Below are positions 1-23,672 of a stretch of DNA of 26,124 bases, in pieces (the first letter of the stretch is position 1; every line of letters begins with the position of its first letter). The stretch is from a virus. The DNA is taken from positions 1-26,124 of the IMG/VR virus record IMGVR_UViG_3300022937_000127; one strand, written 5' to 3'. The notes under the pieces were generated by a model. It did no database searches, was not told the origin of the DNA, and saw nothing but the letters and a program-made list of their open reading frames with translations. The position numbers and the translations under genes were made by a program.

Positions 1-1093
1 CTGCAAGTACTCTTATTTGTCCGGGTATAGCAGTAGTATTGTGCTGCCATTCTGCTACTTGTTCATAGGTAGGCAGTTCGAAAACTTGTATGGCAGAATA
101 GTCGCCACCTGTACCCATTGAAGGATCAAGTGCAACAACATATGTGTATTGGCTTGTTGGCTTCTTGTACCAGCGTGTTTGTCCCATATTAAGTATAGGG
201 TTGCCTCCCTCCATTGTAGCAAGATGAATACTGTTAATTAATGTTTCGTCAAATACTAAGAATTCACAGCCGTATTCACGGCGGAAACGTTCTTCGCCAA
301 TACGTCCAATTTCTGCATCACGCCAAGCATCATCACGATCTGGATGCTCGTGCCATTCTGCACGGAAAGCATGGAAGCCATTTATACCTGTATCGCTTTC
401 GTTGCCATATTCGTCAAACTTTTGTTCTGCTTGTTTCCAAATAGTAGCAAATGTATCTTCGTCTGAGTTAGGTGTGCTTGTAATAATTGCACGACCACCT
501 GTTGCTAGTGTAGGCGAAATCGAAGTCCAAAATTCGTCAGCAATGTTTGGTTGCACAAATGCAAACTCGTCACAGTATAATAGCGAAATAGACATACCAC
601 GTCCAGTAGTGCCTGTTGTTGTTTGCGACACAATACGTGATCCGTTTTCAAACTCTATTGATCCTTTGTTATATGATATAACACCTGCTCTAATATAATC
701 AGGACATAATTCATATACATATCGTATGCGTTGCATAATTTCTTGCGCACCTGTATATTTGTGTGCAGCAATTAGAATAGTTTGATCTGGATTAAACATT
801 GCATACCAGCACAAATAGATAGCAGCACAAGTAGTTTTACCTGTCTGTCTAGGCATCATATTAATATTAAAACGGAATGTATGGTAAGAATGCATCAAAC
901 GCAGTTGATACTCGTAAGGGTCAAATATTAGCTTGCCTTTTACAGGATGCTGAATGTATGCAAACTTTCTTGCAAAATGCAAATACCCTTCGTTTGGATC
1001 CATGCACTTGGCAAGATCCTGAATTTGATCTTCAGTAAAGGTTTCTTTTTGATTTGCTTTCTTGGTTAATACACCATCTAACGACTTGCTCAT
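1..1093 (-). CDS. gp17: Terminase large subunit gp17 (3' part beyond window edge)
   Basis: ATPase-nuclease motor that packages DNA into the prohead. About 364 residues can be read from an ATG at 1093 without a stop; the frame runs off the window, and T4 gp17 is about 610 aa. Visible motifs: Walker A MPRQTGKT (lysine about residue 86), Walker B LLYCDEFAF (D175, E176), an ATPase coupling motif TSTPN near residue 205, and the start of the RNase H-like nuclease domain, ALDPSMGTGGD, with its first metal-binding Asp about residue 324. The gene is cut off from its upstream neighbour by an intrinsic terminator (1106-1136). It then has its own late promoter motif TTAAATA ending 5 nt before the ATG, with no Shine-Dalgarno sequence between. 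The identification is firm; the C-terminal half of the nuclease is not visible. Confidence 0.96.
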   Translation of the reverse strand, partial: MSKSLDGVLTKKANQKETFTEDQIQDLAKCMDPNEGYLHFARKFAYIQHPVKGKLIFDPYEYQLRLMHSYHTFRFNINMMPRQTGKTTCAAIYLCWYAMFNPDQTILIAAHKYTGAQEIMQRIRYVYELCPDYIRAGVISYNKGSIEFENGSRIVSQTTTGTTGRGMSISLLYCDEFAFVQPNIADEFWTSISPTLATGGRAIITSTPNSDEDTFATIWKQAEQKFDEYGNESDTGINGFHAFRAEWHEHPDRDDAWRDAEIGRIGEERFRREYGCEFLVFDETLINSIHLATMEGGNPILNMGQTRWYKKPTSQYTYVVALDPSMGTGGDYSAIQVFELPTYEQVAEWQHNTTAIPGQIRVLA

Positions 1094-2208: not shown

Positions 2209-2712
2209 TTATTTATCTTTATCTAGCCCTTTGAGCTTCTCTAGCAGACTGTTTCTGTCTGATACAACGTATCCTTCGCCATTTACAATACCTGTAGGTG
2301 AAGAATCGTCTTTGTCTAATTTTTCTTTTTTAAGTTGCAACTCGATCATTTTGAGCTTCTTATCCATCTTAGCAACCTTTGCATCAAGTCCTGTCTTGAG
2401 CATACTGCCAGCAACTTCAAATACTCTGCCACTGTAACGACTTTCAACATTCATACCAAGATCCATTAGATCTTCGTAACTGCTCAACGCACGTTGCGCA
2501 ATATCTTCTAGTTCAGCATCAGCCTTTTCGCCTAGTCCTTTTACACTAGGAAGGGCTGCGGCAATCTTGTCAAATTCTGCAATATCTCTAAAAGTTTCTT
2601 CTTGTTCAACAACAGCAGAGTGTTTGGATTTTTTCTTTTCTTCTGCTTTTGCTTCATCAATTATTTCTTTAGAATCAGGCAAATTTAGTATTTCTTCTAG
2701 TTTCTTTGTCAT
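2209..2712 (-). CDS. gp16: Terminase small subunit gp16
   Basis: 167 aa, close to the T4 gp16 length of 164. The small terminase recognises viral DNA and regulates the gp17 motor. The central helical block (about residues 60-145), with YEDLMDLGMNVESRYSGRVF followed by a Lys-rich helix (KMDKKLKMIELQLKKEK), matches the gp16 helical core as I recall it from marine T4-like phages. The N-terminus is acidic/Lys-rich and probably flexible. The ATG at 2712 lies 5 nt after the late motif GATAAATA, with no Shine-Dalgarno. It is separated from gp17 by two unknown genes, unlike T4, where gp16 and gp17 are adjacent. Confidence 0.85.
   Translation of the reverse strand: MTKKLEEILNLPDSKEIIDEAKAEEKKKSKHSAVVEQEETFRDIAEFDKIAAALPSVKGLGEKADAELEDIAQRALSSYEDLMDLGMNVESRYSGRVFEVAGSMLKTGLDAKVAKMDKKLKMIELQLKKEKLDKDDSSPTGIVNGEGYVVSDRNSLLEKLKGLDKDK
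2210..2217 (-). promoter_or_regulatory. Late promoter GATAAATA upstream of the 1623-2180 gene
   Basis: GATAAATA on the minus strand, 29 nt before the ATG at 2180. It overlaps the stop codon of gp16. The leader it would give contains an AGGA ribosome site, the conventional arrangement. Confidence 0.65.
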
Positions 2713-2717: not shown

Positions 2718-2725
2718 TATTTATC
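2718..2725 (-). promoter_or_regulatory. Late promoter GATAAATA, 5 nt before the gp16 ATG
   Basis: The minus strand reads GATAAATA, then GTGTT, then ATG. It overlaps the stop codon of the sulfotransferase gene. There is no ribosome binding site between promoter and start, which predicts a leaderless mRNA. Confidence 0.7.
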
Positions 2726-3302
2726 GGCTATCAAACTCGTATCCATTATTTTCTATAAACTGTTTGTGTTTTTTATAAACATAGTCTTTGGTTGTGCTAT
2801 CATAATATTCCATGTAGTTTCTTTTTGTAGATGCATTTAAGTGCAGTAATGGTATAAAGCAATTAAGTCTATTTTGTATTTGTTTAAAGTCTTCATGAAG
2901 ATTTTCATATTTAAGTATTATATTACAACCATTACTATAAACTTCTTGCGATGTTTGTGGCATAGTTAATAGAAATTTTTTAAAACCTATGCTCTTATAA
3001 TAACGCAACATTGTTGTTGATATTTCTGTATTTTCATCTGGAAGTTTGACTGAATTATCTCCTGCTAAAAATTTTTCTCTTCTTGATATTTCCCAATGAT
3101 ATTTGCTAACATACCAATCCCATGGATTACGTATTACACAAAAAGCATCTTGTATATCCGGGTGTGATTTCTTTACATGTTCGAGCGGAATGTGCCAAAA
3201 CCAGTTACTATTAATTGAAAAGGGTTCCAACCAAGTTCTAATACTAGTGCCGGCAGTTTTTGGCACATGTATAAAAATTATTTTATTTGAAACTACTGCC
3301 AT
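2721..3302 (-). CDS. PAPS-dependent sulfotransferase family protein
   Basis: 193 aa. Sulfotransferases move sulfate from PAPS to a hydroxyl or amine acceptor. Both cofactor signatures are present: the 5'-phosphosulfate loop HVPKTAGTS (residues 12-20) and the 3'-phosphate site around CVIRNPWDWYVSKYHW (R58, S66). The HVPKTAGT form resembles carbohydrate/heparan-type sulfotransferases rather than the cytosolic phenol type. The short length implies a minimal catalytic domain; the acceptor cannot be inferred. Its start overlaps the end of the radical SAM gene by 20 bp, so the two are translationally coupled. The pair sits between gp4 and gp16 as an accessory insertion. The region is visibly richer in A+T runs than the flanking virion genes. 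Confidence 0.85.
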   Translation of the reverse strand: MAVVSNKIIFIHVPKTAGTSIRTWLEPFSINSNWFWHIPLEHVKKSHPDIQDAFCVIRNPWDWYVSKYHWEISRREKFLAGDNSVKLPDENTEISTTMLRYYKSIGFKKFLLTMPQTSQEVYSNGCNIILKYENLHEDFKQIQNRLNCFIPLLHLNASTKRNYMEYYDSTTKDYVYKKHKQFIENNGYEFDSR

Positions 3303-4401
3303 TTGTTAAGTTTTCTTGTATATTAAAGTTAGACTTTACATCACAACTGTATCTACATGCAGGGTGCGGATTGTCTTTTGGCCAAGTTTTTGGATAAAAG
3401 TCAAACATTTCTGTTTGAAATATTTTCTTTATTGTATGTATTTTTGTGTTATTAAAATTTTGTTTGTATCCTTTTTTTTGATAAAATTCTTTAATAAAAT
3501 CATCTTTAAAATTTTGAGAAAGCATTCTATCATGATGAGAAGCTGTCCAGCAGCAAGGCCATATCCTCCCATCAGCTGCCAAATATATACTATTATTGAC
3601 ACTACCGTTAATAGGAAGTACCTTACACTCAATGTTGCATTTGTTATTAGGAGTTGGTAGGTCGTTCGCAGTTTCTACATCGTATTTTATATGAGAATTA
3701 GGTGGAGGAGCTTTAGGAGGCTCAAAAAACTTTGTTATTCCTTTTTCTTCTACTACTGAAGCTGGATAAATCCTGTATTCTTCTTTTTTATTTTTATCAA
3801 AAACTGGAGTATAGTCTTGTACCCATCTATGACTAGGCCTATAAGTAAAGTTTAAAAATCCGTATTCTTGTGCTAACAACTTGCAATCTTCTACTTGATG
3901 TTCGTTATGTTTAAAAACATTCATCATCCAAATTGCTCTGCCGCCAGCATTTATGTATTCTTTTGCATTTGAAATTACAACATCATATCGTGTGTTTCGT
4001 CTATACAAATGATGTGTATCTTCTAATCCGTCTATTCCAAACTCTACATGGACTTTTCTATGTGTTGCTAACCACCTCCAAAATTCTTTGTTTAAGGCTC
4101 CGCCGTTGGTATTAACTTTAATTTGTAAGATATGATTTTTATTAATAATCGTTTGTAGCAATCCTTTAGGATCACTGTGTTTTACAATATCTCCATAGTT
4201 GCCATTGACAGCTACATGTTTAACAGATGTTAGTTCTGGCTGATTTAAAACAGAATCGAGTTCATCTTTTGACCATTCTGTAACATTAAGCCATTTAGCA
4301 GTATCAAGGGTACCTTTCCAATTTCTAGGACATTGTGGGCATCTGGCATTACAATCCGATGTGGGTTCTAAATGTAAATGAGTTATAGGTTTGCCGTACA
4401 T
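3283..4401 (-). CDS. Radical SAM enzyme with C-terminal Cys-rich (SPASM/twitch-like) region
   Basis: 372 aa. The [4Fe-4S] motif C17-x3-C21-x2-C24 (CNARCPQC) is that of radical SAM enzymes, which cleave S-adenosylmethionine to start radical chemistry. The segments VNGNYGD, VNTNGG and EFGIDGLEDTH fit successive strands of the partial TIM barrel. A C-terminal cysteine set (C255, C259, C283, C284, C349, C353) suggests an auxiliary Fe-S cluster domain of SPASM or twitch type, used by enzymes that modify peptides or sugars. The ATG at 4401 is 5 nt after AGTAAATA, a late promoter variant that overlaps the gp4 stop. The downstream sulfotransferase overlaps it, so the two probably act in one modification pathway. 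The substrate is unknown; a peptide or surface glycan is possible. Confidence 0.9.
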   Translation of the reverse strand: MYGKPITHLHLEPTSDCNARCPQCPRNWKGTLDTAKWLNVTEWSKDELDSVLNQPELTSVKHVAVNGNYGDIVKHSDPKGLLQTIINKNHILQIKVNTNGGALNKEFWRWLATHRKVHVEFGIDGLEDTHHLYRRNTRYDVVISNAKEYINAGGRAIWMMNVFKHNEHQVEDCKLLAQEYGFLNFTYRPSHRWVQDYTPVFDKNKKEEYRIYPASVVEEKGITKFFEPPKAPPPNSHIKYDVETANDLPTPNNKCNIECKVLPINGSVNNSIYLAADGRIWPCCWTASHHDRMLSQNFKDDFIKEFYQKKGYKQNFNNTKIHTIKKIFQTEMFDFYPKTWPKDNPHPACRYSCDVKSNFNIQENLTNGSSFK

Positions 4402-4406: not shown

Positions 4407-4414
4407 TATTTACT
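4407..4414 (-). promoter_or_regulatory. Late promoter variant AGTAAATA, 5 nt before the radical SAM ATG
   Basis: The minus strand reads AGTAAATA, CTTCC, ATG. It overlaps the end of gp4. There is no Shine-Dalgarno in the 5-nt spacer. Confidence 0.55.
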
Positions 4415-4850
4415 ACTTTCTTCTGCCTGTGTGAAAAATATCTCCCTCATTGATAACCCTAAAGAAAATTCCTTTTTGCTTACACCAAGCTCTAGCAGCC
4501 ATCCATTTTGCTTGATTGACAACATAATGTGCTTGATTGGCTCTAGATTTTCCTAGGTTTTCTCTAAAAGTTTGATTGGCGGGTTTAACTTCAATGAGTT
4601 CAACATTTTGCTTTCCTTTAGCATCGGCATATGCAATAAAAAAATCTGGAACATATATTGTATGTTTTCCAGTTAAAGGATTTCTATATGGAATACGTAT
4701 TGCTTCACTGGCCCATTGACTAACACTAGGATGTTCGTCACAGAATCTCATAAAGGCAAATTCCCAACTGCTACGATAAGTTGGTACTTTTGTTCCTATG
4801 TATTTGTTAGGGTTTTTAAGGGTGTATTTACCTTGGGCAAACTTTGCCAT
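4413..4850 (-). CDS. gp4: Head completion nuclease-like protein gp4
   Basis: 145 aa, against about 150 in T4 gp4 (gp50/gp65 family), which is needed to finish filled heads. It has a TnsA-like PD-(D/E)xK nuclease core: E30 (SSWEFAF), D69 (VPDFF) and E87-x-K89 (IEVKP). The N-terminal KFAQGKYTLKNPNKYIG is typical of this family in marine T4-like phages. The gene lies 3 bp downstream of the 122-aa gene and has its own AAGGTG ribosome site. It is followed by the inserted radical SAM gene. Family assignment is strong; nuclease activity is inferred from the conserved residues. Confidence 0.9.
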   Translation of the reverse strand: MAKFAQGKYTLKNPNKYIGTKVPTYRSSWEFAFMRFCDEHPSVSQWASEAIRIPYRNPLTGKHTIYVPDFFIAYADAKGKQNVELIEVKPANQTFRENLGKSRANQAHYVVNQAKWMAARAWCKQKGIFFRVINEGDIFHTGRRK

Positions 4851-7242: not shown

Positions 7243-10200
7243 TTATAGACCTGCTATTTCCCCAGTATTTTTCAAACGCAATGGAATGTAAATAAATTCA
7301 ACTGCTTTAACTGGTTCAATTGCAATATCTAAGTAGAGCTCATTTCTGTCAATTCTACTTGGTGTATTGTTTGATTCATCACAAACTACCAAGAAGTCGT
7401 ACAGTGCTCGTTGTCCTACAAGCTCAAGCATTAAGCTCTCTGCTGCTTGTTTGATCTCATCACGTGTGATCTTATCATTTGGTTCAAAGATGTAAGGCTT
7501 AGCAAGTTGATTCAACTGGCTGCGTAGGTAAATTACCAAACGTGCTACGTTGATTCTGTCTAGTGCGCTTGCGCCTCTTGCACGAGTCTTTTGACCGTAG
7601 TTAAGAAGTCCTGCACCTGTAATGAATGTAATTGGATTAACATTTTGTGCGTACAGTGTATCGCGCTGTCCTTCGTTAAGTGCAACTGGTACAAATTCGC
7701 CTTCTGCATCAATATAACCTGTTGAGCTTGCGTTAGTGATTCCGCCACGTCTTGTACCTGCTGGTGCAAACCATGGGTAAGAAACTTGGTCACTTAGTGC
7801 AATAGTTCTAAGCATCATGTGACTTGGAGGAATTACAACATTGTTACCAAAGTTGTCACTTGTGAAGCCCCATGGATAAAATATACCCATGTACTCATCT
7901 CTAGAAACAAGTCCTTCGTCATTGTCTTCTACTGCCAAATTAACGTTAGTTGCCCATTCATTTAATGAAGTAGCATCTGGTGTTAGTCTTGCTGGAGAAT
8001 CGCCAACAATAAATGCACTTAGTCCTCTGTCATAGTTTAGACTAATCATTTCACCAATCAGTTCTGGATACCCTGGGCAAGCCATTAGGTTAAACAGTCT
8101 TGCTTCATCATCTCTAATATCATCATTGTTATTAACAACTGCTTGTAGAGCTTGTACAACAACTTTACGCTGTGCTTTACGTCCGAAGCTACCTGAACCG
8201 TCGTTCTGGTTACCTGATTCTGTAACCCAGCGGTGTGGATAGTAGTTTTCCATTGCTTCGTCACCGTTACGTTCGTTGTCGCCATTAACATCAATGTAGT
8301 TACGCTCAAAACGTTTTACGTTAAATCCACTTCTACGTAGGTTCCATAACAACATACCTTTTGGATATAGTGCTGGATCTGGAGCATCTGGATCTAAGTA
8401 ACTGCTTTCTAGTAGTACATCAATGTCTGCTGCATCGCTTTCACTACCGGCTGTTGCCCAACGTGCATCTGCAAATAACACACCATTTTCTGTAGTTTGG
8501 TCTGCTTTGTCTAGCAGTTCCCAACGATTTGCAATTGGTGTGTTTAGCTTGTTTGCATTAAACTTGTAAATTTGTGGATAGTTTTCAATGTCTGAAGTGT
8601 CAATCCACAAGTCACCATTTTTAAGTGCAGTGCCGTCACTCTGTAATACAGGAGTGCTTGCAGAAACAATAGGTCCATTTGGATCTGTTTGTTCTGCTTC
8701 GTCTGCATTGTAATAAGGTGATGTTGAAGTTAAGTAACCAACCCAGTTGCTACCATCGTGGATCATTAGATCAACTTCATCGACAATTGAATTATACCAT
8801 TTAGCACCTTGTGCTGTTAGTGCAGTTACAGGATCATCACTTGCAGTGTAAGTAAGAACTTTCCAGTTACTTGCTTGTAATTCTAGTGGTGATGTGCTGC
8901 CATCTGTACCAGGTACATAATATAGATTTGGTGTGCCGCTTGTTGAACTAACAAATGCAGCGTAACCCATTTCAGTTAATACACCGTCTGTATCAACAAA
9001 TCTAATATCTCCACCTAGTGCGTGTGAAATAACAACTCTGTTTGAAGTATCAACGTCTGCTGTAACATTAGTAATGTTAGCATCTGTGATTGCTGCTGCA
9101 ATCGCTTCTGCATCAGTGCTAGAACCTGTCAAGCTAGGTACAGTAACAGTTGTAGCAGAGCTAAATGAGCTACTTCCGTTATCTGTGCTTGCAATAGTAA
9201 ATGTTCTATTACTACCAGAAGTTATAGTTCCTGTAAGTATTTTAGAACTTGTAATAGTTGTTGATCCTACATTCTGTCTGCGGAAAATTTTAAATGTTCC
9301 TAGCTTTTGACTGTCTGCTGCTACGTTTGTCATAACATACAAGTCACCAACTGCAAGATTTGCGCCGCCGCCTGTTCTATCTAATTCGTACAGTGCGTTT
9401 TCGTTGTTTGGATATAAAGGTGCTTCTACAGTATCCCATAGTAATGTAGCATCGTTCCAAACTTTAACTCTCCAACGTGCGCCTTGGTTAGGTTCAGTTG
9501 TTTTAATCCAAACACTGCCCGATGGACGTTGATATGTGTCATTTGTTTTCCATTCTGGAACAACAGTGTGTTTGCTAATTGCTAGTGCTGGAGGATAATA
9601 TGAACCTACATTAATTCCTAATAGATCCAATGTATCGGCATCGCCGCCTACTACAATAGGACCGCCTAATGACGAGTCGTCAGCACCTGAACTTGTACCA
9701 TCACTATAAACTTCTAAGCGACCATCTACTGCGGCAGCACTTAGTCCTGGGATTAATAATCCATTAATTGTTGAAGCAACATCTGCTACTTGATCGCTTG
9801 ATGTAACTGTTACATCCGTACCATTTAGTGTAATTGTTGCAGACGCTACTGAGAATGTTGGGTTTGCATTGCTGCCTTGGATAGTAGGCCAGCTTTGAAT
9901 CCAATCTGCACTTCCTACTTCTACCCACTCACCAGTTGATAATGCAGGTGCATTACCTTCTGACTTGTACCAAAGTCTGTTTGTAGTTGTAATTGCAACA
10001 ATAGCATAATCACCTACTGTACCTACAGAAGATTTTGGTGCTCCTGGTGATGTAATGCTTCCTGTTACTTGAGAAACGTTTGTAATTACGATTGGTGTTT
10101 GTGCGGTAAATGACTGACCGCCTGCTGTTGTAACTGGCGCACTGTTCCATTGTTGAATACCAAATGCAGTAACCGAAGTATCAAACCAATAAGTACCAGC

Positions 10201-10593
10201 TTCTGGGTTAGCTGCTGGTGCAGTTGAACTTGGTTGAATCTCGTTCAAATCAATGTCTGCTCTTACAACCCATGCCCTGTTGGAAACACCTAAGAATGAA
10301 TAAGCTGCCTGTAAGCCGTACTCATTAAGCTCTCCAGCGTGTATTGGGTTATTGTTATTATCAACTTGGAAAACTGGATCTCCAAATGTATCTGCTAGAT
10401 CTCTTTGAGATGTTAGCAAGTAAGGCTTACCAGCATTTGCTGCCAGTGTTCCTTGTGCTGTGCCTGTGCCGCTTGCATTTGCCTTATCTTGCGCACTGGC
10501 AACAAAAATCATTGGGGTAGTGCCGGGTTCAGCGGGAGTGTAAAAACTCTCGTCAATTACCTTAACCTCAACACCTGGTGATACTAATGCCAT
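7243..10593 (-). CDS. gp18: Tail sheath protein gp18, with large inserted beta modules
   Basis: 1116 aa against 659 in T4; forms the contractile sheath. The N-terminus (ALVSPGVEVKVIDESFYTP) and the C-terminal part from about residue 760 (PHRWVTESGNQN; YLRSQLNQLAKPYIFEPND; IAIEPVKAVEFIYIPLRLK) are standard sheath sequence. The extra length lies between roughly residues 120 and 700. It holds aromatic-rich beta segments (residues 131-151, 195-231, 350-405, 575-620) and two modules resembling the flagellar-hook IN motif (about 250-328, TLNGTDVTV with DVASTINGLLIPG; about 455-548). These probably form domains on the outside of the sheath. The ATG at 10593 has an AGGAG site and an upstream GGTAAATA motif. 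Confidence 0.95.
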   Translation of the reverse strand: MALVSPGVEVKVIDESFYTPAEPGTTPMIFVASAQDKANASGTGTAQGTLAANAGKPYLLTSQRDLADTFGDPVFQVDNNNNPIHAGELNEYGLQAAYSFLGVSNRAWVVRADIDLNEIQPSSTAPAANPEAGTYWFDTSVTAFGIQQWNSAPVTTAGGQSFTAQTPIVITNVSQVTGSITSPGAPKSSVGTVGDYAIVAITTTNRLWYKSEGNAPALSTGEWVEVGSADWIQSWPTIQGSNANPTFSVASATITLNGTDVTVTSSDQVADVASTINGLLIPGLSAAAVDGRLEVYSDGTSSGADDSSLGGPIVVGGDADTLDLLGINVGSYYPPALAISKHTVVPEWKTNDTYQRPSGSVWIKTTEPNQGARWRVKVWNDATLLWDTVEAPLYPNNENALYELDRTGGGANLAVGDLYVMTNVAADSQKLGTFKIFRRQNVGSTTITSSKILTGTITSGSNRTFTIASTDNGSSSFSSATTVTVPSLTGSSTDAEAIAAAITDANITNVTADVDTSNRVVISHALGGDIRFVDTDGVLTEMGYAAFVSSTSGTPNLYYVPGTDGSTSPLELQASNWKVLTYTASDDPVTALTAQGAKWYNSIVDEVDLMIHDGSNWVGYLTSTSPYYNADEAEQTDPNGPIVSASTPVLQSDGTALKNGDLWIDTSDIENYPQIYKFNANKLNTPIANRWELLDKADQTTENGVLFADARWATAGSESDAADIDVLLESSYLDPDAPDPALYPKGMLLWNLRRSGFNVKRFERNYIDVNGDNERNGDEAMENYYPHRWVTESGNQNDGSGSFGRKAQRKVVVQALQAVVNNNDDIRDDEARLFNLMACPGYPELIGEMISLNYDRGLSAFIVGDSPARLTPDATSLNEWATNVNLAVEDNDEGLVSRDEYMGIFYPWGFTSDNFGNNVVIPPSHMMLRTIALSDQVSYPWFAPAGTRRGGITNASSTGYIDAEGEFVPVALNEGQRDTLYAQNVNPITFITGAGLLNYGQKTRARGASALDRINVARLVIYLRSQLNQLAKPYIFEPNDKITRDEIKQAAESLMLELVGQRALYDFLVVCDESNNTPSRIDRNELYLDIAIEPVKAVEFIYIPLRLKNTGEIAGL

Positions 10594-10632
10594 TTTGTTT
10601 CTCCTGTAGGAATTAATTTTATTTGCTGTATG

Positions 10633-10640
10633 TATTTACC
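10633..10640 (-). promoter_or_regulatory. Probable late promoter GGTAAATA for gp18
   Basis: GGTAAATA on the minus strand, 39 nt before the gp18 ATG, in a 114-bp gap that also holds a plus-strand GGTAAATA for the HNH gene. Leader length and the AGGAG site are conventional. Confidence 0.55.
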
Positions 10641-10695
10641 ATTATCTAATAAAAAATCATGTTAAACACCTATAGAAAAGGGACCGAAAAGGTGA

Positions 10696-10703
10696 GGTAA
10701 ATA
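10696..10703 (+). promoter_or_regulatory. Probable late promoter GGTAAATA just before the HNH gene
   Basis: GGTAAATA ends 4 nt before the ATG at 10708. A GAGG (10694-10697) overlapping its left end could instead act as a ribosome site on a longer transcript, so promoter and RBS readings compete here. Confidence 0.45.
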
Positions 10704-10707
10704 CAGT

Positions 10708-11043
10708 ATGCGACCATTATGCAAGTGCGGCCAGCGTCCTGCTGCTATAAATTACAAAAAAGGAAACAGAACTTACTATCGCAAGCTCTGTGAAACCTGC
10801 TTGCGCAACGGCATTCATCACGGAATACCCAAATGGAAGCAAAAAGGTTATACTAAGGGAGATACCTGTGAAAAATGCGGATTTAAATCAAAACATTCAG
10901 AACAGTTTAATGTGTTCCATATAGACGGAGATTTAAATAATTGTCGTCCTAACAACCTGAAGACGATATGCGCCAACTGTCAGCGTCTTCTTCAAAAGGA
11001 CGGGGTGCGCTGGAAGCAAGGTGACCTAGTCCCTGATTTCTAA
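10708..11043 (+). CDS. Small HNH/treble-clef zinc protein (HNH endonuclease family)
   Basis: 111 aa with two Cys4 zinc sites: C5-x-C7 with C28-x2-C31, and C54-x2-C57 with C88-x2-C91. Between the last two pairs is FHIDGDLNN (H71, D73), followed by N82/N83, which fits an HNH nuclease fold. The MRPLCKCG start and overall pattern are familiar from T4-like cyanophages. It may be a homing-type nuclease or a packaging-associated HNH protein; the sequence does not decide. It is the only plus-strand gene between gp19 and gp13. Its last 95 bp overlap the 3' end of the kinase gene on the other strand. The start is fixed by the conserved N-terminus. Confidence 0.85.
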   Translation: MRPLCKCGQRPAAINYKKGNRTYYRKLCETCLRNGIHHGIPKWKQKGYTKGDTCEKCGFKSKHSEQFNVFHIDGDLNNCRPNNLKTICANCQRLLQKDGVRWKQGDLVPDF

Positions 11044-11533
11044 AGATAGTACGAATAAGTGTATCAACATTTCTTTCTAGTCTAGCTAAATCACCATTGT
11101 TGTCAATAGTGTAATCGCACATCCATTGTTCAATGCTCATTGAACTAGGATCTTCAGTAGGCAAATGATCGCAACGATCTACCCAAATTGCATAGTCAAA
11201 GATTTCTTCGTTTTGCATTGCGAAGAATTCACGCTTGTTACGTAGTCCGCAATAGATATTGTTTTGTGCAAACAAATTTCTGCCTAGTCTTGCTAAATCA
11301 TCTTTACAGTAGTCGTGGATCATATTGTACCATTCAGTGCGATGGTTGTGACGATCTGCATAACACTCTTCTTCGTCTGCGTAACCGTACTTGTCTTTTA
11401 GATCGTTGAATATAAAAAGCTCTGAACAGAACTTAGAACTTGATTGAAATGTGTATCCGTATTTTTCTAATAATTCGCAAACAGTATCTTTGCCATGACG
11501 ACCATGACCTACTACTAATAATTTAGGTAGCAT
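10949..11533 (-). CDS. Deoxynucleoside monophosphate kinase-like P-loop protein
   Basis: 194 aa. P-loop GHGRHGKDT (residues 9-17, K15) close to the N-terminus, followed by an alpha/beta kinase core (QSSSKFCSELFIF; DDLARLGRNLF; FDYAIWVDRCDHLP, with WVDR in the lid/base region). This resembles the dNMP kinase (gp1-like) of T4-like marine phages, which phosphorylates dNMPs for phage DNA synthesis. The last ~31 residues are encoded antisense to the HNH gene and look like a tail added to the fold. It has its own exact-consensus sigma70 promoter and a GGAG site, and no late motif. It therefore behaves as an early gene placed between late genes gp13 and gp18. Confidence 0.8.
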   Translation of the reverse strand: MLPKLLVVGHGRHGKDTVCELLEKYGYTFQSSSKFCSELFIFNDLKDKYGYADEEECYADRHNHRTEWYNMIHDYCKDDLARLGRNLFAQNNIYCGLRNKREFFAMQNEEIFDYAIWVDRCDHLPTEDPSSMSIEQWMCDYTIDNNGDLARLERNVDTLIRTIFRNQGLGHLASSAPRPFEEDADSWRISSSGC

Positions 11534-11561
11534 AAATTAATCTCCGCACAATATATTTTAT

Positions 11562-11590
11562 ATTATACGGAAAAATTAGTAAGATGTCAA
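11562..11590 (-). promoter_or_regulatory. Exact-consensus sigma70 promoter for the dNMP kinase
   Basis: The minus strand has TTGACA (11590-11585), a 17-bp spacer, and TATAAT (11567-11562). Both hexamers and the spacing match the bacterial consensus. The expected start is about 20 nt before the GGAG site and ATG at 11533. The promoter starts 8 bp after the gp13 stop codon. Confidence 0.9.
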
Positions 11591-11597
11591 GTATTTT

Positions 11598-12356
11598 TTA
11601 CCCTATTAAGAAACCGTAGCCTGCACCGCCTGCTACTGCTTCTTGAACTTCTTTTTCAAGTTTTTCCATTTCAGCAGTTGCTTCTGCTTTAAGTGCATCA
11701 CCGTTTAGTGTTGATCCGCCTTGTGGGCCAGCAATAGTAGCAAACTTACTTCTTGCTTCACCTAGCATAAACTTACAACTAGCAAGTGTATAATCTTTAA
11801 TCCATTGCTTTGCTAGGTAATCATCTAATAATGATTCGTCTGGGCGATAGTTATAACAATAAAGTAATAGATCTTCTTCTGCTCTAGGACGTTGTAGTAG
11901 TGTTAATTTTTTAGTTTGTGTGTTCCATTTAAATTCTATAAATGAACCAAACATACGCCCTACTAATTCTTGATATCCAGCAAATAGCTCGTAAGTTGCA
12001 AGGCCACCCATATTAGATGAGCTTAACAAGTATGTATTTGTATAAGCCATGTTAAATGGTTCAAACAATGTGCCGCCGTCGCCGCCGCCGGTACGTGATC
12101 CTATACTTCTGCGGAATAACTTACGAACTTCAACAATTTCTGCAGGAAGTGTATATTCGTTTTGATCAATGACTGTAGGCAAGAAAATATATGATTCTTC
12201 AACTGAGTTGTCTGAACGCTGCCTAAACTTAGTCAATGCTTTATTAAGTCCAGTTTCATAATGAATAGGATCTAATTCAACGTCGATCATTCCGCCGCCG
12301 AGCATAGCATTTACATAATCATATACTTCTTGTTTCTTTGTTGCTAAATTTGCCAT
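11598..12356 (-). CDS. gp13: Neck protein gp13
   Basis: 252 aa (T4 gp13 is 309). Neck proteins close the filled head and accept the tail. The N-terminal helix (ATKKQEVYDYVNAMLGGGM) is followed by DVELDPIHYETGLNKALTKF, FLPTVIDQNEYTLPAEIVEV, a Gly-rich loop (TGGGDGG), FIEFKWNTQTKKLTLLQRP, and a C-terminal helical region with an Ala/Glu coiled stretch (KAEATAEMEKLEKEV). This matches gp13 of marine T4-like phages. The ATG at 12356 has GGAG 8 nt upstream. A late promoter half-site at 12380-12373 is part of a palindrome shared with gp14. In T4, gp13 and gp14 are co-directional; here they diverge. Confidence 0.88.
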   Translation of the reverse strand: MANLATKKQEVYDYVNAMLGGGMIDVELDPIHYETGLNKALTKFRQRSDNSVEESYIFLPTVIDQNEYTLPAEIVEVRKLFRRSIGSRTGGGDGGTLFEPFNMAYTNTYLLSSSNMGGLATYELFAGYQELVGRMFGSFIEFKWNTQTKKLTLLQRPRAEEDLLLYCYNYRPDESLLDDYLAKQWIKDYTLASCKFMLGEARSKFATIAGPQGGSTLNGDALKAEATAEMEKLEKEVQEAVAGGAGYGFLIG

Positions 12357-12372
12357 ATGAAGTTCTCCATAG

Positions 12373-12380
12373 TATTTATC
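12373..12380 (-). promoter_or_regulatory. Late promoter GATAAATA for gp13 (left half of a palindrome)
   Basis: Left half of the 21-bp palindrome TATTTATCG-TAT-CGATAAATA (12373-12393). Read on the minus strand it gives GATAAATA, 16 nt before the gp13 ATG, with a GGAG ribosome site in the leader. Confidence 0.75.
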
Positions 12381-12385
12381 GTATC

Positions 12386-12393
12386 GATAAATA
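12386..12393 (+). promoter_or_regulatory. Late promoter GATAAATA for gp14 (right half of a palindrome)
   Basis: Right half of the same palindrome. The plus strand reads GATAAATA, TGTGT, ATG, i.e. 5 nt to the conserved gp14 start at 12399, with no Shine-Dalgarno. One palindrome therefore carries two back-to-back late promoters. Confidence 0.75.
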
Positions 12394-12398
12394 TGTGT

Positions 12399-13559
12399 AT
12401 GCCAAGACTATCTTTATACAAACCAGAAAAGGGCAACGACTACGAATTCCTAGATCGACAGATACTAGAAATGTTTTCAGTCGGCGGTACAGACTTACAT
12501 GTCCATAAGTATCTAGGTCCCGAAAATCCAGATGACGCATCGGCAACTGCGGATAAGCCGCAATATGATGCTGTCAAAGAAACTAACATACAAGACCTGC
12601 TGTTTATGGAGAACAGAGATCGTAAATACGATCCGGATGTTTATACTATACGAGGAATTTACAATGTCCAAGATTTAGATTTTAATCTAAGTCAGTTTGG
12701 GTTGTTCTTAGCTAATGATGATACTATTATGCTCACTGTGCATATTAGAAGCAGCGTTAAGACATTAGGCAGAAAGATTATGCCAGGTGATGTAATAGAA
12801 TTGCCGCATCTAAAAGATGAATATGCATTAAATGATTTTTCTCTTGCATTGAAACGCTTCTATGTAGTCGAAGACATTAATCGTGCAGCAGAGGGTTTTA
12901 CACAAACGTGGTATCCTCATTTGTACAGATTAAAACTTAAACAAATTGTTGATAGTCAAGAGTTTAAAGAGATACTAGACCTTCCTGCAGAAGAAGGCGA
13001 AACACAAACACTTAGAGATTTGCTTTCAACCTATGAACAGGAAATGCAAATTAATAATGCAATCTTGAATCAAGCAGAAGCAGATGCTGCAAAATCGGGG
13101 TACGATACCAGTCATTTCTTTACATTAAACATTGACGATAACGGTGACACACAACTTAACAGAGCAGACCAAACAGTACTCGATGCAAGTGGTGCTGATT
13201 TAACTGCTGACAGAATAATGTCACCTCCGGATAGAGAAGGTTATTCAGGATACTTGTTAGGTGATGGTATTCCGCCTAATGGAGAAGCGTTCGGACACGG
13301 AATTCAATTTCCTTCAGGAGCAACAGTGGATGATTATTTTTTAAGAACTGACTTTTTTCCAAATAGACTGTTTAGATATGACGGATCACGTTGGGTTAAA
13401 CTAGAAGAGAACGTGCGCATGACAATGACAAATACCGACAACAGACTTACACAAAAAGGAACATTTGTTAATAACACCAACACTGACGAAATTGGTGGTG
13501 AAACAGTTCAAGAACGACAAAGTTTGTCTCAAGCACTTAGACCTAAGGCGGATAACTAA
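12399..13559 (+). CDS. gp14: Neck protein gp14
   Basis: 386 aa from the conserved start MPRLSLYKPEKGNDY; T4 gp14 is 256. An in-frame ATG at 12357 exists but overlaps the divergent promoter, and its first 14 residues do not fit the family. Residues 1-200 are typical gp14 (FLDRQILEMFSVGGTDLHVH; YLGPENP; FSLALKRFYVVEDINRAAEG; QTWYPHLYRLKLKQI). The C-terminal ~180 residues are an extension with acidic low-complexity sequence and an aromatic hairpin (RYDGSRWVKLE, about 326-335). Similar hairpins occur in gp15, gp18 and the fibre genes. The stop overlaps the gp15 start (TAATG). Confidence 0.9.
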   Translation: MPRLSLYKPEKGNDYEFLDRQILEMFSVGGTDLHVHKYLGPENPDDASATADKPQYDAVKETNIQDLLFMENRDRKYDPDVYTIRGIYNVQDLDFNLSQFGLFLANDDTIMLTVHIRSSVKTLGRKIMPGDVIELPHLKDEYALNDFSLALKRFYVVEDINRAAEGFTQTWYPHLYRLKLKQIVDSQEFKEILDLPAEEGETQTLRDLLSTYEQEMQINNAILNQAEADAAKSGYDTSHFFTLNIDDNGDTQLNRADQTVLDASGADLTADRIMSPPDREGYSGYLLGDGIPPNGEAFGHGIQFPSGATVDDYFLRTDFFPNRLFRYDGSRWVKLEENVRMTMTNTDNRLTQKGTFVNNTNTDEIGGETVQERQSLSQALRPKADN

Positions 13560-15004
13560 TGCAACATTTTTATGACGGACAAATTAGAAGGTATATTACG
13601 CAGATAGTGCGTATGATGAGTAATTTTAGTTATAAGGATGGCAAGGGTCAGCTGGTGCAAGTGCCTGTTATGTACGGAGATATAACTAGACAAGTAGGTT
13701 CTATACTAAGAGATAACAGCGAAAACAAAATTCCTAGTGCCCCTCGCATGGCTGTTTATGTCACAGGCATAGAAATGGACAGAGACAGGACTGGAGATTC
13801 CAGTTATGTAAGTAAAGTAAATATTAGAGAACGTGCATACGATAGTGAAGGAAAAGAATATCTAAAAAAGGAAGGCAAAAACTACACTGTTGAAAGATTA
13901 ATGCCCACACCATACACACTTAGCGTGAATGTAGATATCTGGACAACTAACACAGACATGAAATTACAAATCATGGAACAAATTTTGATGTTGTTTAATC
14001 CTAGTTTAGAAATACAAACCACAGACAACTATATCGATTGGACTAGTTTAAGTGTAGTTAATTTAGAAAACTTAACTTTCAGTAGTAGAAGCATACCAGT
14101 AGGAACAGAAACTGAGATAGATGTTGCTACTTTAGGATTTACTACACCAATTTATATTTCCCCACCAGCCAAAGTAAAACGTTTAGGTGTTGTTACGGAC
14201 ATTGTAACTAGTATTTTCAACGAGCAAGGATCAGTTGATCTGGGAGATGGCTTAGGACAAAGTTCCGGAAATGCAGAAGCATTAATTAGACCGAAGCTGG
14301 CTGTTGTTCCTACCGGTGAAATTAAAAATATTCAAGAAAAACAAGAACTTGTGCGATCAGGTGTTGATATTGTTATGGGTATGAGTCACAACCAACCTAA
14401 TCTATTGGTAATGAATAACACCATTCAACTTGTTAAAAAAGGAATTGTTGGCGGTGAAGACTGGATCAGTTATTTGAAAGCGTTACCTTATGAATTCGAA
14501 TCTGGTGTTACACAGGTACGATTAGCAAGAAATGATTTAGATAATGAAATTTCAGGAACACTAGCAATTAATGAGAACGACCCAGCGTTTGCTATTGTTA
14601 ATTGGGATGAAGATTCGTTACCTTCCGACTCTGTTATTACATCTTCGTTAGGTGACAGAAGTAAAATTGATTATATCATAGATCCTCAAAAGTCAAATCC
14701 TCAAGATTTAGGACTTACTGGCAACCCAAGGATACTTATACTAGCTCCAATTGGCGATGTTGATAACGAAGATGGTGCAGACGCCTGGAAAAATGCGGAC
14801 GGCACTGATTTTGTTGCTAGTGAAAACGATATTGTTGAATGGGATGGTACTAAATGGAGTATTGTATTCGATGCAAGTAGCTCAACAGACACAATATACC
14901 AAACAAATCTTAATACAGGCGTTCAGTATAAGTGGGATACCGGTGAATGGTTACTAGCATTTGAAGGTGAATATCCAAACGGGTCATGGCGTTTGCAATA
15001 CTAA
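13559..15004 (+). CDS. gp15: Tail sheath stabiliser / tail completion protein gp15
   Basis: 481 aa (T4 gp15 is 272). It caps the tail so that it can join the neck. The N-terminus (MQHFYDGQIRRYITQIVRMM) and VPVMYGDITRQ, APRMAVYVTGIEMDRDR, PYTLSVNVDIWTTNTDMKLQ, EQILMLFNPSLEIQTTDNYI and ISPPAKVKRLGVVTDIVTSIF follow the gp15 fold through about residue 225. The remaining ~250 residues are an extension ending in two aromatic hairpins (EWDGTKWSIVF about 426-436; YKWDTGEWLLAFEG). It starts at the last base of the gp14 stop, so the two are translationally coupled, and both depend on the palindromic promoter. Confidence 0.88.
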   Translation: MQHFYDGQIRRYITQIVRMMSNFSYKDGKGQLVQVPVMYGDITRQVGSILRDNSENKIPSAPRMAVYVTGIEMDRDRTGDSSYVSKVNIRERAYDSEGKEYLKKEGKNYTVERLMPTPYTLSVNVDIWTTNTDMKLQIMEQILMLFNPSLEIQTTDNYIDWTSLSVVNLENLTFSSRSIPVGTETEIDVATLGFTTPIYISPPAKVKRLGVVTDIVTSIFNEQGSVDLGDGLGQSSGNAEALIRPKLAVVPTGEIKNIQEKQELVRSGVDIVMGMSHNQPNLLVMNNTIQLVKKGIVGGEDWISYLKALPYEFESGVTQVRLARNDLDNEISGTLAINENDPAFAIVNWDEDSLPSDSVITSSLGDRSKIDYIIDPQKSNPQDLGLTGNPRILILAPIGDVDNEDGADAWKNADGTDFVASENDIVEWDGTKWSIVFDASSSTDTIYQTNLNTGVQYKWDTGEWLLAFEGEYPNGSWRLQY

Positions 15005-15813: not shown

Positions 15814-16082
15814 TGTCTTTATTCTTAAAACACAGCAAAAAAATGCAGTCTGATGTAGAGTCTTATAAAAATGCTATTAGTAAAATTAAGTTAGGAAAGA
15901 ATAAGCAATATTTTACAAATCTACTTCAGAAATTTATAGAATATTCTCGATATATAGACAGTGCGCATGACACTAATAACAATGGTTACATAAAACCAAA
16001 TGTTAATCAAGAGTTTGTTATCGAAATGATAAAAATACGTAAAGAATTTGCTAAACTTCTAAAAGATGTTAAAGAGCACTAA
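15813..16082 (+). CDS. Small helical protein, unknown
   Basis: 89 aa from ATG 15813, which shares its A with the cupin stop (TGATG); an in-frame TTG 3 bp upstream is less likely. It is Lys-rich (LFLKHSKKMQSDVESYKNAI; KLGKNKQYF) and predicted to be two or three helices (LLQKFIEYSRYIDSAHD; FVIEMIKIRKEFAKLLKDV), without motifs I recognise. It ends the plus-strand gp14-gp15-Nudix-cupin run. Its last 14 bp overlap the end of the minus-strand cupredoxin gene. Support is the coupling and sensible composition only. Confidence 0.6.
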   Translation: MSLFLKHSKKMQSDVESYKNAISKIKLGKNKQYFTNLLQKFIEYSRYIDSAHDTNNNGYIKPNVNQEFVIEMIKIRKEFAKLLKDVKEH

Positions 16083-16956
16083 AATCTTTAATTGTTATTG
16101 CACCAACCATTGCTGCATGTAGCGTACATTGGTACCTAAAGTTAGGCGGCGATGTAGTTGTTTCCGGAATTCTCCAATATAAAGTACCACTTTCTTTGCC
16201 TTGGGCATTTGAACCGGTAACTACCGTCCCATCGTTTGCAACATGAACCAGGCCAGTGTTGTATTGAGTGCCTGTACTATCTTGTATTTCAAAAGGGTGT
16301 CCTGAAATATTATTTAGATCAAATGCAACTGTAGTTCCACTTATAACGTAAATTGTAGGATTATCAGTAATACCATAATGATCTGAAAACCTATATGCAC
16401 TGGCTGAATTATTAACTAACCGGAAAGTTTGTATTGCATGTTCATAGAACTTATCAACACTCATTCCAGCTGTAGTAGCATCATTTAAGTCAGTAAAATC
16501 AGATACTGCTGCTGCTGATGCTGATAAAGTAATAGAATCAGTACCTTGGTTTGTAATAATATTAATTCCTGCACCTGCAACTAACGTTAGAGTGTCAGTA
16601 GTATTGTCTGCTTCAATGGTATTTTGGCCAGAAACTGCAATATTAGAAAATGCATTTTGGTTAGGCTCGCCGCCTTCGCCGCCGCCACCGCCTGTTGATG
16701 CAATAGTTAAGGTGTTTGTTCCAGGTTCTGTGGTAATTGTAACGTTGGAGCCTTCAGCAATATTTAAAGTATCATTAGTAGATCCTGCTACAATATCACT
16801 TTGACCAGATACCGAAATAGTATTAAACACATTAGGTATAGACACGCTTGACGATGAAACAACTACGTTCCAAGATGTTCCGTCAAACTGCCAAGTTGTA
16901 TCACCTTCTGTTATTGTGTCTCCATTTGATGGATTTATTGGAAAATTTATCGCCAT
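16069..16956 (-). CDS. Fibre-like virion protein with a C-terminal cupredoxin-like domain
   Basis: 295 aa. Residues 1-35 carry an aromatic hairpin (WQFDGTSWNVVV). Two 44-residue beta modules follow (44-87 and 103-146, each F-x-x-I-x-V-S-G-Q ... DTL ... G), separated by a Gly-rich linker at 89-95. Residues about 198-295 look like a cupredoxin: PTIYVISGTTVAFDL, ISGHPFEI (H220), GTLYWRIP, and YQCTLHAAMVGAITI with C277-x2-H280-x2-M283. This places His, Cys, His and Met where type 1 copper ligands occur in plastocyanin-like proteins, though the last loop is shorter. It is probably a surface/fibre protein; metal binding is inference. It lies 10 bp after the protease gene and has an AAGGA site. Confidence 0.8.
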   Translation of the reverse strand: MAINFPINPSNGDTITEGDTTWQFDGTSWNVVVSSSSVSIPNVFNTISVSGQSDIVAGSTNDTLNIAEGSNVTITTEPGTNTLTIASTGGGGGEGGEPNQNAFSNIAVSGQNTIEADNTTDTLTLVAGAGINIITNQGTDSITLSASAAAVSDFTDLNDATTAGMSVDKFYEHAIQTFRLVNNSASAYRFSDHYGITDNPTIYVISGTTVAFDLNNISGHPFEIQDSTGTQYNTGLVHVANDGTVVTGSNAQGKESGTLYWRIPETTTSPPNFRYQCTLHAAMVGAITIKDFSAL

Positions 16957-16966
16957 TTTTTTATCC

Positions 16967-18580: not shown

Positions 18581-19305
18581 ACTAAGCTCACCCAGGCTCC
18601 GTTTTCATAAACTTGCGCTTTGTTCAAGTCTGTATCATATACCATGTCACCATTAACTGCTGCTAACCCGTCTTTATCAACTGTTGTAAAACTAGGTAGC
18701 CTAAAAGGACCTTGAGAAACAATCACCCCGTCAGGTGCTGTAAGTGTTAATGTACTTGCACTTGTTATATCAGCTGCTCCAACACCTGTGTTAGTAAAAG
18801 TATCAGCTGAAACACTGTTGAATACAACATCGTCTGTAGTATCAAGTCCTTGATTAGATCCACTTGCTGTATCTTGGAATGTATAATTACCTGCACCGTC
18901 TGTAGTTAAAACTTGCCCTACTGTTCCGTCAGATACTCTAAGTATAGGTTCGTAACTACTAGGTATAGCTATAGTAAGTGATTTCTCAATAGCGTCTGAA
19001 GTAATTTCAATACCAAACCCATCCTTTAGTGTTAGGGTATCATCGCCTGATGCACTGAACTGTGTGCTATCGTTGAATGCTATATTTTTAAACGCACTTG
19101 TATCCGGAATAGGAACAGATGGTTGCACCCATTGACTGCTATCTGTATCTTCTACATAAACATACAATCTACCATTTGTACTATTATACCAAATATTACC
19201 CGATTCTGGAGAAACTGGTGCAGTGTCCGATACATCTATACTTGCACCGCTTGATGCTGCTCCTGTTCCTGTTCCTGGATCAGCTAGGGTAATGGTATTA
19301 CCCAT
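18577..19305 (-). CDS. Fibre-like virion protein
   Basis: 242 aa, rich in Thr, Ser, Asp and Gly, as in tail-fibre or surface proteins. Features: NIWYNSTNGRLYVYVEDTD with SSQWV (residues 37-59), one beta module homologous to the two in the cupredoxin-fibre gene (72-114, FKNIAFNDSTQFSASGDDTL), VGQVLTTDGAGNYTFQD (a common marine phage fibre motif), and a C-terminal MVYDTDLNKAQVYENGAWVSL. The start overlaps the upstream gene by 22 bp; the end overlaps the protease start by 4 bp. It is probably an adhesin or connector subunit; the partner is unknown. Confidence 0.78.
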   Translation of the reverse strand: MGNTITLADPGTGTGAASSGASIDVSDTAPVSPESGNIWYNSTNGRLYVYVEDTDSSQWVQPSVPIPDTSAFKNIAFNDSTQFSASGDDTLTLKDGFGIEITSDAIEKSLTIAIPSSYEPILRVSDGTVGQVLTTDGAGNYTFQDTASGSNQGLDTTDDVVFNSVSADTFTNTGVGAADITSASTLTLTAPDGVIVSQGPFRLPSFTTVDKDGLAAVNGDMVYDTDLNKAQVYENGAWVSLV

Positions 19306-19862
19306 ATTAGAATTACGCCGCCGTCATATGTAAGACCGCTGCTAGTAGAACTACTTACTGAAAAAATAGTTTTTCTTTCAGTATAAGAATTAAATTTGCT
19401 AATGTAAGTTTCTGCAGATACAGGATTATCTCCTAATACATAGGTTACGCCTTGCGTATAGTAATCACTACCATTTTTAATTATAAACGGATGAATAGCA
19501 GAATTGAAACTTATATTGCTGTTATCGGATTGATCAAAAATGTAAGAGTAGCCTCGTACTAGTGTAATACCAGGATTAGCTTCTCCGTCTATATAAAATG
19601 CTTGTGAATATACTGCTTCAGGATCTACATCAACTGTAATTTCTCTAGTAATTGATGCTATTCCTGATTGATATATTTCTCTAGCAAGATTCTCGGAGGT
19701 ATAAACTGTTACTCCGCCTTTAATTTTGCCGTCGAACAATCTTAGTGTTTTTGCTTGTCCGTCAAAAAATACTTCTCCACTAGATCCAACGTTCCTATCT
19801 AAAAAGTCGTCCGGTCTTGGAATGATTCGTATTCTATCTACTACTGGTGCTTGATTTGACAT
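19284..19862 (-). CDS. Virion structural protein with a degenerate cupredoxin-like domain
   Basis: 192 aa. The N-terminus (APVVDRIRIIPRPDDFLDR, then NVGSSGEVFFDGQAKTLRLF) is one I recognise from structural proteins of T4-like cyanophages. Residues about 85-150 (FYIDGEANPGITLVRGYSYI, then FDQSDNSN, AIHPFII, YTQGVTYVLG) match the first half of the cupredoxin-like domain common in marine phage fibres. H124 is at the first copper-ligand position. The C-terminus (LTYDGGVILIWVIPLP) lacks the C-x2-H-x2-M loop, so copper binding should be lost. The ATG has a GGGA ribosome site inside a hairpin that overlaps a late promoter. It is the first gene of the fibre/protease operon. Confidence 0.8.
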   Translation of the reverse strand: MSNQAPVVDRIRIIPRPDDFLDRNVGSSGEVFFDGQAKTLRLFDGKIKGGVTVYTSENLAREIYQSGIASITREITVDVDPEAVYSQAFYIDGEANPGITLVRGYSYIFDQSDNSNISFNSAIHPFIIKNGSDYYTQGVTYVLGDNPVSAETYISKFNSYTERKTIFSVSSSTSSGLTYDGGVILIWVIPLP

Positions 19863-22436: not shown

Positions 22437-22439
22437 ATA

Positions 22440-23671: not shown

Positions 23672-23672
23672 G

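Follow-up and report, generated by a model that had tools for sequence, protein, structure and literature searches.

The gp4–gp16 junction of uncultivated T4-like phages as a probable slot for late tailoring enzymes, carrying a radical SAM and a sulfotransferase gene in one phage

The 26-kb virus record IMGVR_UViG_3300022937_000127 (26,124 nt; the whole stretch is called the window here) carries T4-like structural genes on the minus strand. Between its gp4-like head completion gene and its gp16-like small terminase gene, two genes were identified that code for a predicted radical S-adenosylmethionine (SAM) enzyme and a predicted sulfotransferase using 3′-phosphoadenosine-5′-phosphosulfate (PAPS). 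Comparison with related loci suggests that the gp4–gp16 junction of uncultivated T4-like phages is probably a swappable slot for late tailoring enzymes, two of which are stacked in the window phage. The slot was found to be empty in most scored relatives and to hold varied cargo in others, and both genes in the window have intact reading frames and motif residues.

Occupancy of the gp4–gp16 junction in related phages

For the analysis of the junction, 79 gp4 relatives with 74–83% identity were fetched from the best 80 among the matches listed. Seventy of them were scored, without deduplication, whereas nine stood outside the scoring because a border gene was not called. In related loci, a relative of the gp16-like gene follows gp4. 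An empty junction was found in 49 of the 70 scored slots, with a gap of 15 to 83 nt (median 29 nt), which bears out the claim of an earlier note on this sequence that the two genes interrupt a gp4–gp16 block. A sulfotransferase alone was present in 14 slots and a radical SAM of another subfamily in 2. One slot contained a tryptophan halogenase (L188; Pfam Trp_halogenase, 212 bits) and one a methyltransferase-like protein of 200 aa, the latter a weak match (13 bits, cut-off 27). The remaining three showed a gap of more than 100 nt and no open reading frame (ORF) of 80 aa. An empty site together with alternative cargo in relatives is the pattern of a moron-like cargo slot. A classical moron has its own promoter and terminator; here, a late-type box precedes the cargo in the window, and the lone-sulfotransferase cargo is without such a box.

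In a deduplicated table covering every locus in which both border genes are present (75 junctions), 45 were empty, 20 held a sulfotransferase without a radical SAM, 1 held the pair of the window and 9 held others. The sulfotransferase share of this table is inflated, since loci fetched by sulfotransferase similarity were included. A slot with a more distant gp4 (L118; 59% identical) contained a radical SAM of the query family (31% identical), a second radical SAM and two other genes. The slot sulfotransferases are diverse, with 6 label changes on a tree of 100 rows; judged from this tree, they may have a single origin. A dispersed promoter repeat was considered as the driver of exchange but is not supported: the 23-bp slot element (up to 3 mismatches) was found once in 6 of 10 large records and not at all in the other 4.

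A second cargo position was observed between gp16 and the next virion gene (L173, 5962–6658; L192, 3718–4582; L213; L219). It holds a sulfotransferase in L213 and L219 and SGNH-hydrolase-like or nucleotidyltransferase-like genes, named by eye, in L173 and L192.

Mostly separate occurrence of the two genes

The exact pair was seen in the window phage alone, namely in the window and in three IMG/VR records with identical copies, one of which stops inside the radical SAM gene. In the fetched loci, 133 distinct members of the radical SAM family were counted at a profile score above 100 bits, 123 of them with both neighbours visible, and 115 distinct sulfotransferases of the window type, 107 of them with both neighbours visible. 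An adjacent sulfotransferase was detected for 2 of the 123 radical SAM members (the window phage and L258, where it is of a different type), and one within four genes for 3. Conversely, an adjacent radical SAM was detected for 2 of the 107 sulfotransferases (the window and L019), and one within four genes for 8. All these neighbour counts should be read as lower bounds. Two profiles were used to detect sulfotransferases, whereas a profile built for another radical SAM type (304 sequences) served as generic radical SAM detector. L247–L255 were left out of the ORF counts and L412–L419 out of the locus reading. Among ten large related records (42–275 kb), the radical SAM profile matched in 2, one with two full-length copies and one at 24 bits. 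The sulfotransferase profile matched in 4, and both occurred together in one, the record with the weak radical SAM match of 24 bits.

Given this separate occurrence in the neighbour counts and the large records, the radical SAM and sulfotransferase genes mostly travel apart. The earlier note had proposed a two-step modification by a dedicated pair and had named the two genes lying mostly apart in other genomes as the outcome that would speak against it; this is what was found within the searched set, where 14 of 70 slots also hold a sulfotransferase alone. The idea of a conserved pair acting as a unit was rejected in view of these lower-bound neighbour counts. No radical SAM–sulfotransferase pair in phages was found in the literature searched by title or start of abstract.

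Distribution of the radical SAM family

The radical SAM family is large. It was confirmed in 394 IMG/VR stretches (not deduplicated), of which the best 80 were kept for closer reading. A tblastn search of 50,697 GenBank phage records with the radical SAM protein gave no match below an E value of 1e-5; weak matches at E values up to 10 were found in 7 records, CP220 among them. Bacterial relatives were confirmed for 9 of 85 pattern matches. Three of them, from metagenome-assembled genomes of Verrucomicrobia, Bdellovibrio and Acidobacteria, showed 30–32% identity at E values of 1e-38 or better and six were weaker; the function of the radical SAM enzyme is not settled by any of these nine.

Among 117 family members, 41 come immediately after a helicase-like gene and 45 immediately precede a conserved 82-aa gene (e.g. 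L089, L061, L140 and L075). In PA5oct the helicase and 82-aa genes are adjacent with no radical SAM between them. Helicase and primase were named by eye and confirmed by the PA5oct annotation alone. From its gene order, the radical SAM family behaves as cargo at this helicase/82-aa site too. The 82-aa protein was considered as a dedicated substrate of the helicase-linked radical SAM; this idea was weakened by the gene arrangement in PA5oct.

Further observations concern loci of the family. Members of a family of proteins of about 300 aa (L257–L261, L073, L064, L116, L335 and L336) have a radical SAM profile match within four genes in 9 of 10 finds, a figure biased by the fetching of loci through radical SAM or sulfotransferase similarity; the one member tested gave no Pfam match. 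In G001, the 275-kb record of L173, a radical SAM of the query family lies in two pieces at 94254–95178, with a TAG inside the second, and two full-length copies lie elsewhere in the record. L023 contains a set of genes (8320–14726, minus strand) resembling those for ribosomally synthesized and post-translationally modified peptides (RiPPs): a 135-aa Asn/Cys-rich protein, a radical SAM, a 209-aa gene, a tryptophan halogenase (Trp_halogenase, 330 bits), a second radical SAM, a 2OG-Fe(II) oxygenase and a Sulfotransfer_2 gene. The first radical SAM of this row is 44–46% identical to one in the Achromobacter phages JWF and 2-1.

Predicted properties of the two enzymes

The identities of both enzymes given in the earlier note were confirmed as predictions by passed Pfam cut-offs, motif residues and fold matches. 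The radical SAM protein matched PF04055 (Radical_SAM) with 35.5 bits (cut-off 29.5). The CxxxCxxC motif is formed by C17, C21 and C24, all three invariant in alignment A1 (30 of 40 representatives; of 33 rows tried, L048, L065 and the second L106 row were left out). Five C-terminal cysteines are conserved across the family (C259, C283, C284, C349 and C353), a number compatible with one auxiliary cluster. The SPASM hallmark, which we take to be a seven-cysteine pattern binding two auxiliary clusters, was not found, the conserved C-terminal cysteines being five, and Pfam SPASM (PF13186) scored below its cut-off (16.0 vs. 21.5 bits). All 18 NCBIfam matches were far under the curated cut-offs, including the twitch radical SAM NF033640 (25.1 bits, cut-off 170), and no PHROG match up to an E value of 1 was obtained. 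The description of the enzyme as cluster-rich holds in part: the CxxxCxxC motif is accompanied by the additional conserved cysteines, read here as one auxiliary cluster, and SPASM stayed below its cut-off.

The AlphaFold2 (AF2) model of the radical SAM protein has a mean predicted local distance difference test (pLDDT) score of 77.8. Its predicted barrel best matched SuiB (VIA Z 19.3, root-mean-square deviation 3.6, 260 residues aligned), followed by SkfB (18.8), anSMEcpe (18.1), BlsE (17.4) and MoaA (17.3). The structural comparison with peptide- and sugar-modifying enzymes suggested in the earlier note thus matched the barrel, but SuiB, SkfB, anSME, BlsE and MoaA are close in score. Peptide-, protein- and small-molecule-modifying radical SAM enzymes score close together against the model; families missing from the fold-match lists are not counted as excluded. 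Residues 1–2 of the model align to approximately residue 100 of SuiB and SkfB, so that the model begins at the barrel. The first approximately 100 residues of these two enzymes are presumably their peptide-recognition domain.

The sulfotransferase matched Sulfotransfer_2 (PF03567) with 23.8 bits, narrowly passing the cut-off of 22, and phrog_3347, named galactose-3-O-sulfotransferase, with an E value of 3e-12. The PAPS loop HVPKTAGTS is present, and H12, K15, G18, R58 and S66 are invariant in alignment A2 (35 of 55 listed sulfotransferase rows); these residues we take to belong to the PAPS-binding loop and the 3′-phosphate site. Compared with the 34 further viral rows of A2, the protein shows 23–35% identity. 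Its AF2 model (pLDDT 89.3) gave many sulfotransferase matches at Z 8.5–9.7, among them HS2ST (heparan sulfate 2-O, 9.7), SULT1C3 (9.7), StaL (9.1) and TPST2 (tyrosylprotein, 8.9). The modelled fold does not separate sugar, small-molecule and protein substrates.

Late-type boxes and predicted leaderless transcripts

The T4 late promoter is described as a TATA-type box of 8 bp that lies roughly one helical turn ahead of the transcript start, with its first base at −13 (PMC2988020) and the consensus TATAAATA (PMC5587285). In the window, the box AGTAAATA has an exact TAAATA core and is separated from the radical SAM ATG by 5 nt. It deviates twice from TATAAATA, a box in which single deviations are tolerated, with A at −13 and G at −12; A at −13 is reported for nine T4 sites (PMC2988020), and G at −12 was found in 4 of 72 boxes with the same 5-nt spacing in relatives. 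The exact ATAAATA is not present before the radical SAM ATG. The doubt that this had raised over the box was dropped after a survey of spacings.

In related loci (L165–L243), the spacing between TAAATA and ATG falls into two classes, one of 20–27 nt and one of exactly 5 nt (72 of 496 ATG genes) or 4 nt (18 genes). When the letters of the 45-nt upstream stretches were shuffled 200 times, TAAATA occurred at 5 nt 1.2 times on average and at most 6 times, compared to 72 observed. TAAATA-N5-ATG is therefore a real, conserved class in the relatives, and it supports a late-type box where the earlier note had placed a late promoter, 5 nt from the radical SAM start. The arrangement was found in 52 of 64 second tail-tube genes and 17 of 44 gp17 genes (window included). 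Within the window it precedes gp17 (1093), gp16 (2712), the radical SAM gene (4401) and the second tail-tube gene (6501), all on the minus strand. Neither motif is enriched across the window (ATAAATA 7 vs. 14 expected; TAAATA 31 vs. 45 expected), so the late-box signal is positional.

Since the first base of the box lies at −13 in T4, a 5-nt spacer would place +1 on the A of the AUG. The 5-nt spacing thus predicts a leaderless late mRNA for the radical SAM gene, the second tail-tube gene, gp17 and others. If real, such mRNAs would be found more generally in these phages.

The gp4 stop codon of most empty junctions lies within GATAAATA, and the gp16 ATG comes about 25 nt further on. ATAAATA was found in 45 of 50 empty junctions shorter than 60 nt. 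In the rows with cargo (n = 25, including 5 copies of the window phage) it precedes gp16 in 16 and the cargo in 3. Lone sulfotransferase genes begin on or near the gp4 stop codon, and this abutting or overlapping start suggests translational coupling to gp4. In the 45 nt before each of 17 clustered sulfotransferases, no TAAATA was found. Among the 133 distinct radical SAM family members, TAAATA was found at 5 nt in 11 and at 4 or 6 nt in 6. For the pair in the window, late expression is probable, based on the late-type box and the insertion in the packaging block.

Gene layout of the window

Transcription runs from gp18 (sheath) and gp19 through a second tail-tube protein and a 122-aa protein to gp4. 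The radical SAM and sulfotransferase genes come next, followed by the gp16-like gene, a virion protein, a 157-aa protein and, cut off by the window end, a gp17-like ORF. The genes flanking the slot (gp18, gp19, gp4 and gp17) are structural or packaging genes. The positions and the 20-bp overlap of the pair given in the earlier note match the ORFs exactly (Table 1). Between the gp4 stop codon and the radical SAM ATG lie 11 nt; 8 nt separate the sulfotransferase stop codon from the gp16 ATG.

Table 1. Features of the gp4–gp16 slot and its surroundings in the window.
Feature	Position	Strand	Evidence or remark
gp17-like terminase large subunit, runs off window end	2..1093	-	named by position and by eye
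gp16-like (small terminase), downstream slot border	2209..2712	-	phrog_16202, E 1.5e-13; phrog_445, E 7e-4 (weak)
Late-type box GATAAATA before gp16-like gene; its TAA is the sulfotransferase stop codon	2718..2725	-	also in most empty junctions
PAPS-type sulfotransferase (predicted), 193 aa	2721..3302	-	PF03567, phrog_3347, alignment A2, AF2 model, fold matches
Overlap of radical SAM 3′ end and sulfotransferase start, 20 bp	3283..3302	-	
Radical SAM enzyme (predicted), 372 aa	3283..4401	-	PF04055, conserved columns, AF2 model, fold matches
T4-late-type box AGTAAATA, overlaps gp4 stop codon	4407..4414	-	-13..-6 if +1 is the A of the radical SAM ATG
gp4-like head completion/closure, upstream slot border	4413..4850	-	phrog_218, E 3.2e-42; tblastn matches in 2479 phage records

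Further modifying-enzyme genes form a second set at 19898–26042 (minus strand) in a run of short genes. It comprises six 2OG-Fe(II) oxygenase-like genes (three passing a Pfam cut-off, the others identified through PHROG or weak Pfam matches), two phrog_7084 proteins and one methyltransferase. The set adjoins tail-fibre-like genes at 16069–19862, and the run lies upstream of them. A subtilase (Peptidase_S8, 101.7 bits) was found amid the tail-fibre-like genes at 16967–18580 (minus strand).

Proposed function and alternative explanations

In the proposed mechanism, the cargo of lone-sulfotransferase relatives would be read through from upstream late promoters, with its translation coupled to gp4. 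In the window phage, the radical SAM gene would be driven by its own late-type box to give a leaderless late mRNA, and translation of the sulfotransferase would be coupled to the radical SAM gene via the 20-bp overlap. Late transcription would yield a radical SAM–sulfotransferase message. Each enzyme would then independently draw on a host cofactor (SAM or PAPS) and modify something available late in infection, and the two need not act on the same substrate. The leading, uncertain guess for the target is a virion protein or a glycan on the virion, ranked before the host surface. Circumstantial support for a virion target comes from the operon, the likely timing and the second set of modifying-enzyme genes near the tail-fibre-like genes. 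A glycan target is circumstantially supported by an FkbM methyltransferase (Pfam 49.8 bits) near the radical SAM of L258 and by glycosyltransferase-like genes, named by eye, in L368.

A joint pathway, in which the radical SAM enzyme alters a site that the sulfotransferase then sulfates on one late virion or surface target, would account for the 20-bp overlap and the common late-type box. It would also fit L258, where a close radical SAM relative overlaps a weak Sulfotransfer_3-like gene, and L368 (the same find as L367), where both genes lie within four genes of each other. With adjacency detected for 2 of 123 radical SAMs and 2 of 107 sulfotransferases, and both profiles together in one of ten large records, where the radical SAM match is weak at 24 bits, it is very unlikely. 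Maturation of a small peptide by the radical SAM enzyme in a RiPP-like system is suggested by the best fold matches, SuiB (19.3) and SkfB (18.8), but anSME, BlsE and MoaA score nearly as high and the model has no N-terminal extra domain. No adjacent precursor peptide gene was found, the junctions measuring 11 nt and 8 nt besides the 20-bp overlap. The slot has no separate small ORF, since the minus-strand ATG ORFs of 20–93 aa that were listed lie inside larger genes or across the gp4/radical SAM junction. A RiPP cluster was rejected for the window because the model starts at the barrel and no separate small ORF was found in the slot; this explanation appears highly improbable.

The modification could instead act late on the host surface, for example on a lipopolysaccharide or capsule sugar, and prevent progeny from binding to debris or block superinfection. 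The name of phrog_3347, the heparan sulfate sulfotransferases among the fold matches, the FkbM methyltransferase near a close relative and the glycosyltransferase-like genes near a distant one point in this direction. On the other hand, the fold scores do not separate substrate classes (HS2ST 9.7, SULT1C3 9.7, StaL 9.1, TPST2 8.9) and no glycosyltransferase was recognised in the slot, so this explanation is fairly unlikely. A permissive junction carrying both genes as neutral passengers, without any selected function in this phage, would agree with the 49 of 70 scored relatives lacking cargo. This is quite unlikely, as frames and motif residues are intact and nameable cargo is repeatedly of the modifying-enzyme kind.

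Several observations weigh against the interpretation of the junction as a slot for independent late tailoring enzymes. The pair was found in a single phage, so that its acquisition could be recent and neutral. The closest radical SAM relatives (41–44% identity; L257–L265, from the best 80 of 394) mostly lie beside further radical SAM genes, and together with the FkbM methyltransferase near one of them this makes glycan or small-molecule work fit as well as protein work. No TAAATA was found in the 45 nt upstream of 110 of the 133 radical SAM family members. The neighbour counts are minimum values because the detectors miss some types; a radical SAM of L023 (47.9 bits) that lies two genes from the sulfotransferase there was missed by the radical SAM profiles. 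Finally, the radical SAM of L258 (42% identical) has a 4-bp overlap with its Sulfotransfer_3-like gene (18.8 bits, cut-off 27), and given this locus some functional link between the two enzyme types may exist.

A further extension of the slot interpretation is speculative and has a rather small chance of being correct. It would make the junction a combinatorial virion-tailoring slot with one or two interchangeable enzymes per lineage, the radical SAM gene standing under a leaderless late promoter. Progeny virions would then leave the cell chemically decorated in a lineage-specific way, which would alter adsorption or how host defence recognises them. Lying at a fixed place between two core late genes, the slot offers a handle on this question through its likely timing, its location and the naturally empty and loaded relatives, and virion modification is directly testable in a slot-bearing phage.

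Comparison with known systems

The tryptophan halogenase in the slot of L188 is comparable, by its family name, to the marine viral flavin-dependent halogenases of the VirX1 type. The CxxxCxxC barrel and the C-terminal cysteine region of the radical SAM protein are similar to those of the SPASM/twitch enzymes SuiB, SkfB, anSME, BlsE and MoaA (VIA Z 17–19). It differs from them by the lack of the N-terminal extra domain and by SPASM and NCBIfam scores under the cut-offs. The sulfotransferase is similar to PF03567/phrog_3347 sulfotransferases in Pfam match, PAPS loop and fold, but is short (193 aa) and 23–35% identical. The boxes described here resemble the TATA-type box of T4 late promoters; many of them sit exactly 5 nt ahead of the ATG, which would imply leaderless late mRNAs.

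In phages, radical SAM genes have been reported in Campylobacter phages CP220 and CPt10, which contain 11 and 12 of them, respectively (PMC2853527), and radical SAM cassettes distinguish two closely related pelagimyophages (PMC7029224). Their radical SAM genes resemble the slot of the window in being a swappable module. Theirs, however, form a central module or lie in a hypervariable region, whereas single enzymes were found here at one precise head-closure/packaging junction. Viral halogenases are also already known (PMC10452541), and the function of phage sulfotransferases has been called unclear (PMC10580990). Neither a single packaging-operon junction exchanging such enzymes nor the leaderless late class was found described in the literature searched, with subscription papers and preprints outside the search. 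Sulfotransferases and radical SAM enzymes recur in viromes with unclear benefit to the phage, and the slot described here gives a way into this question.

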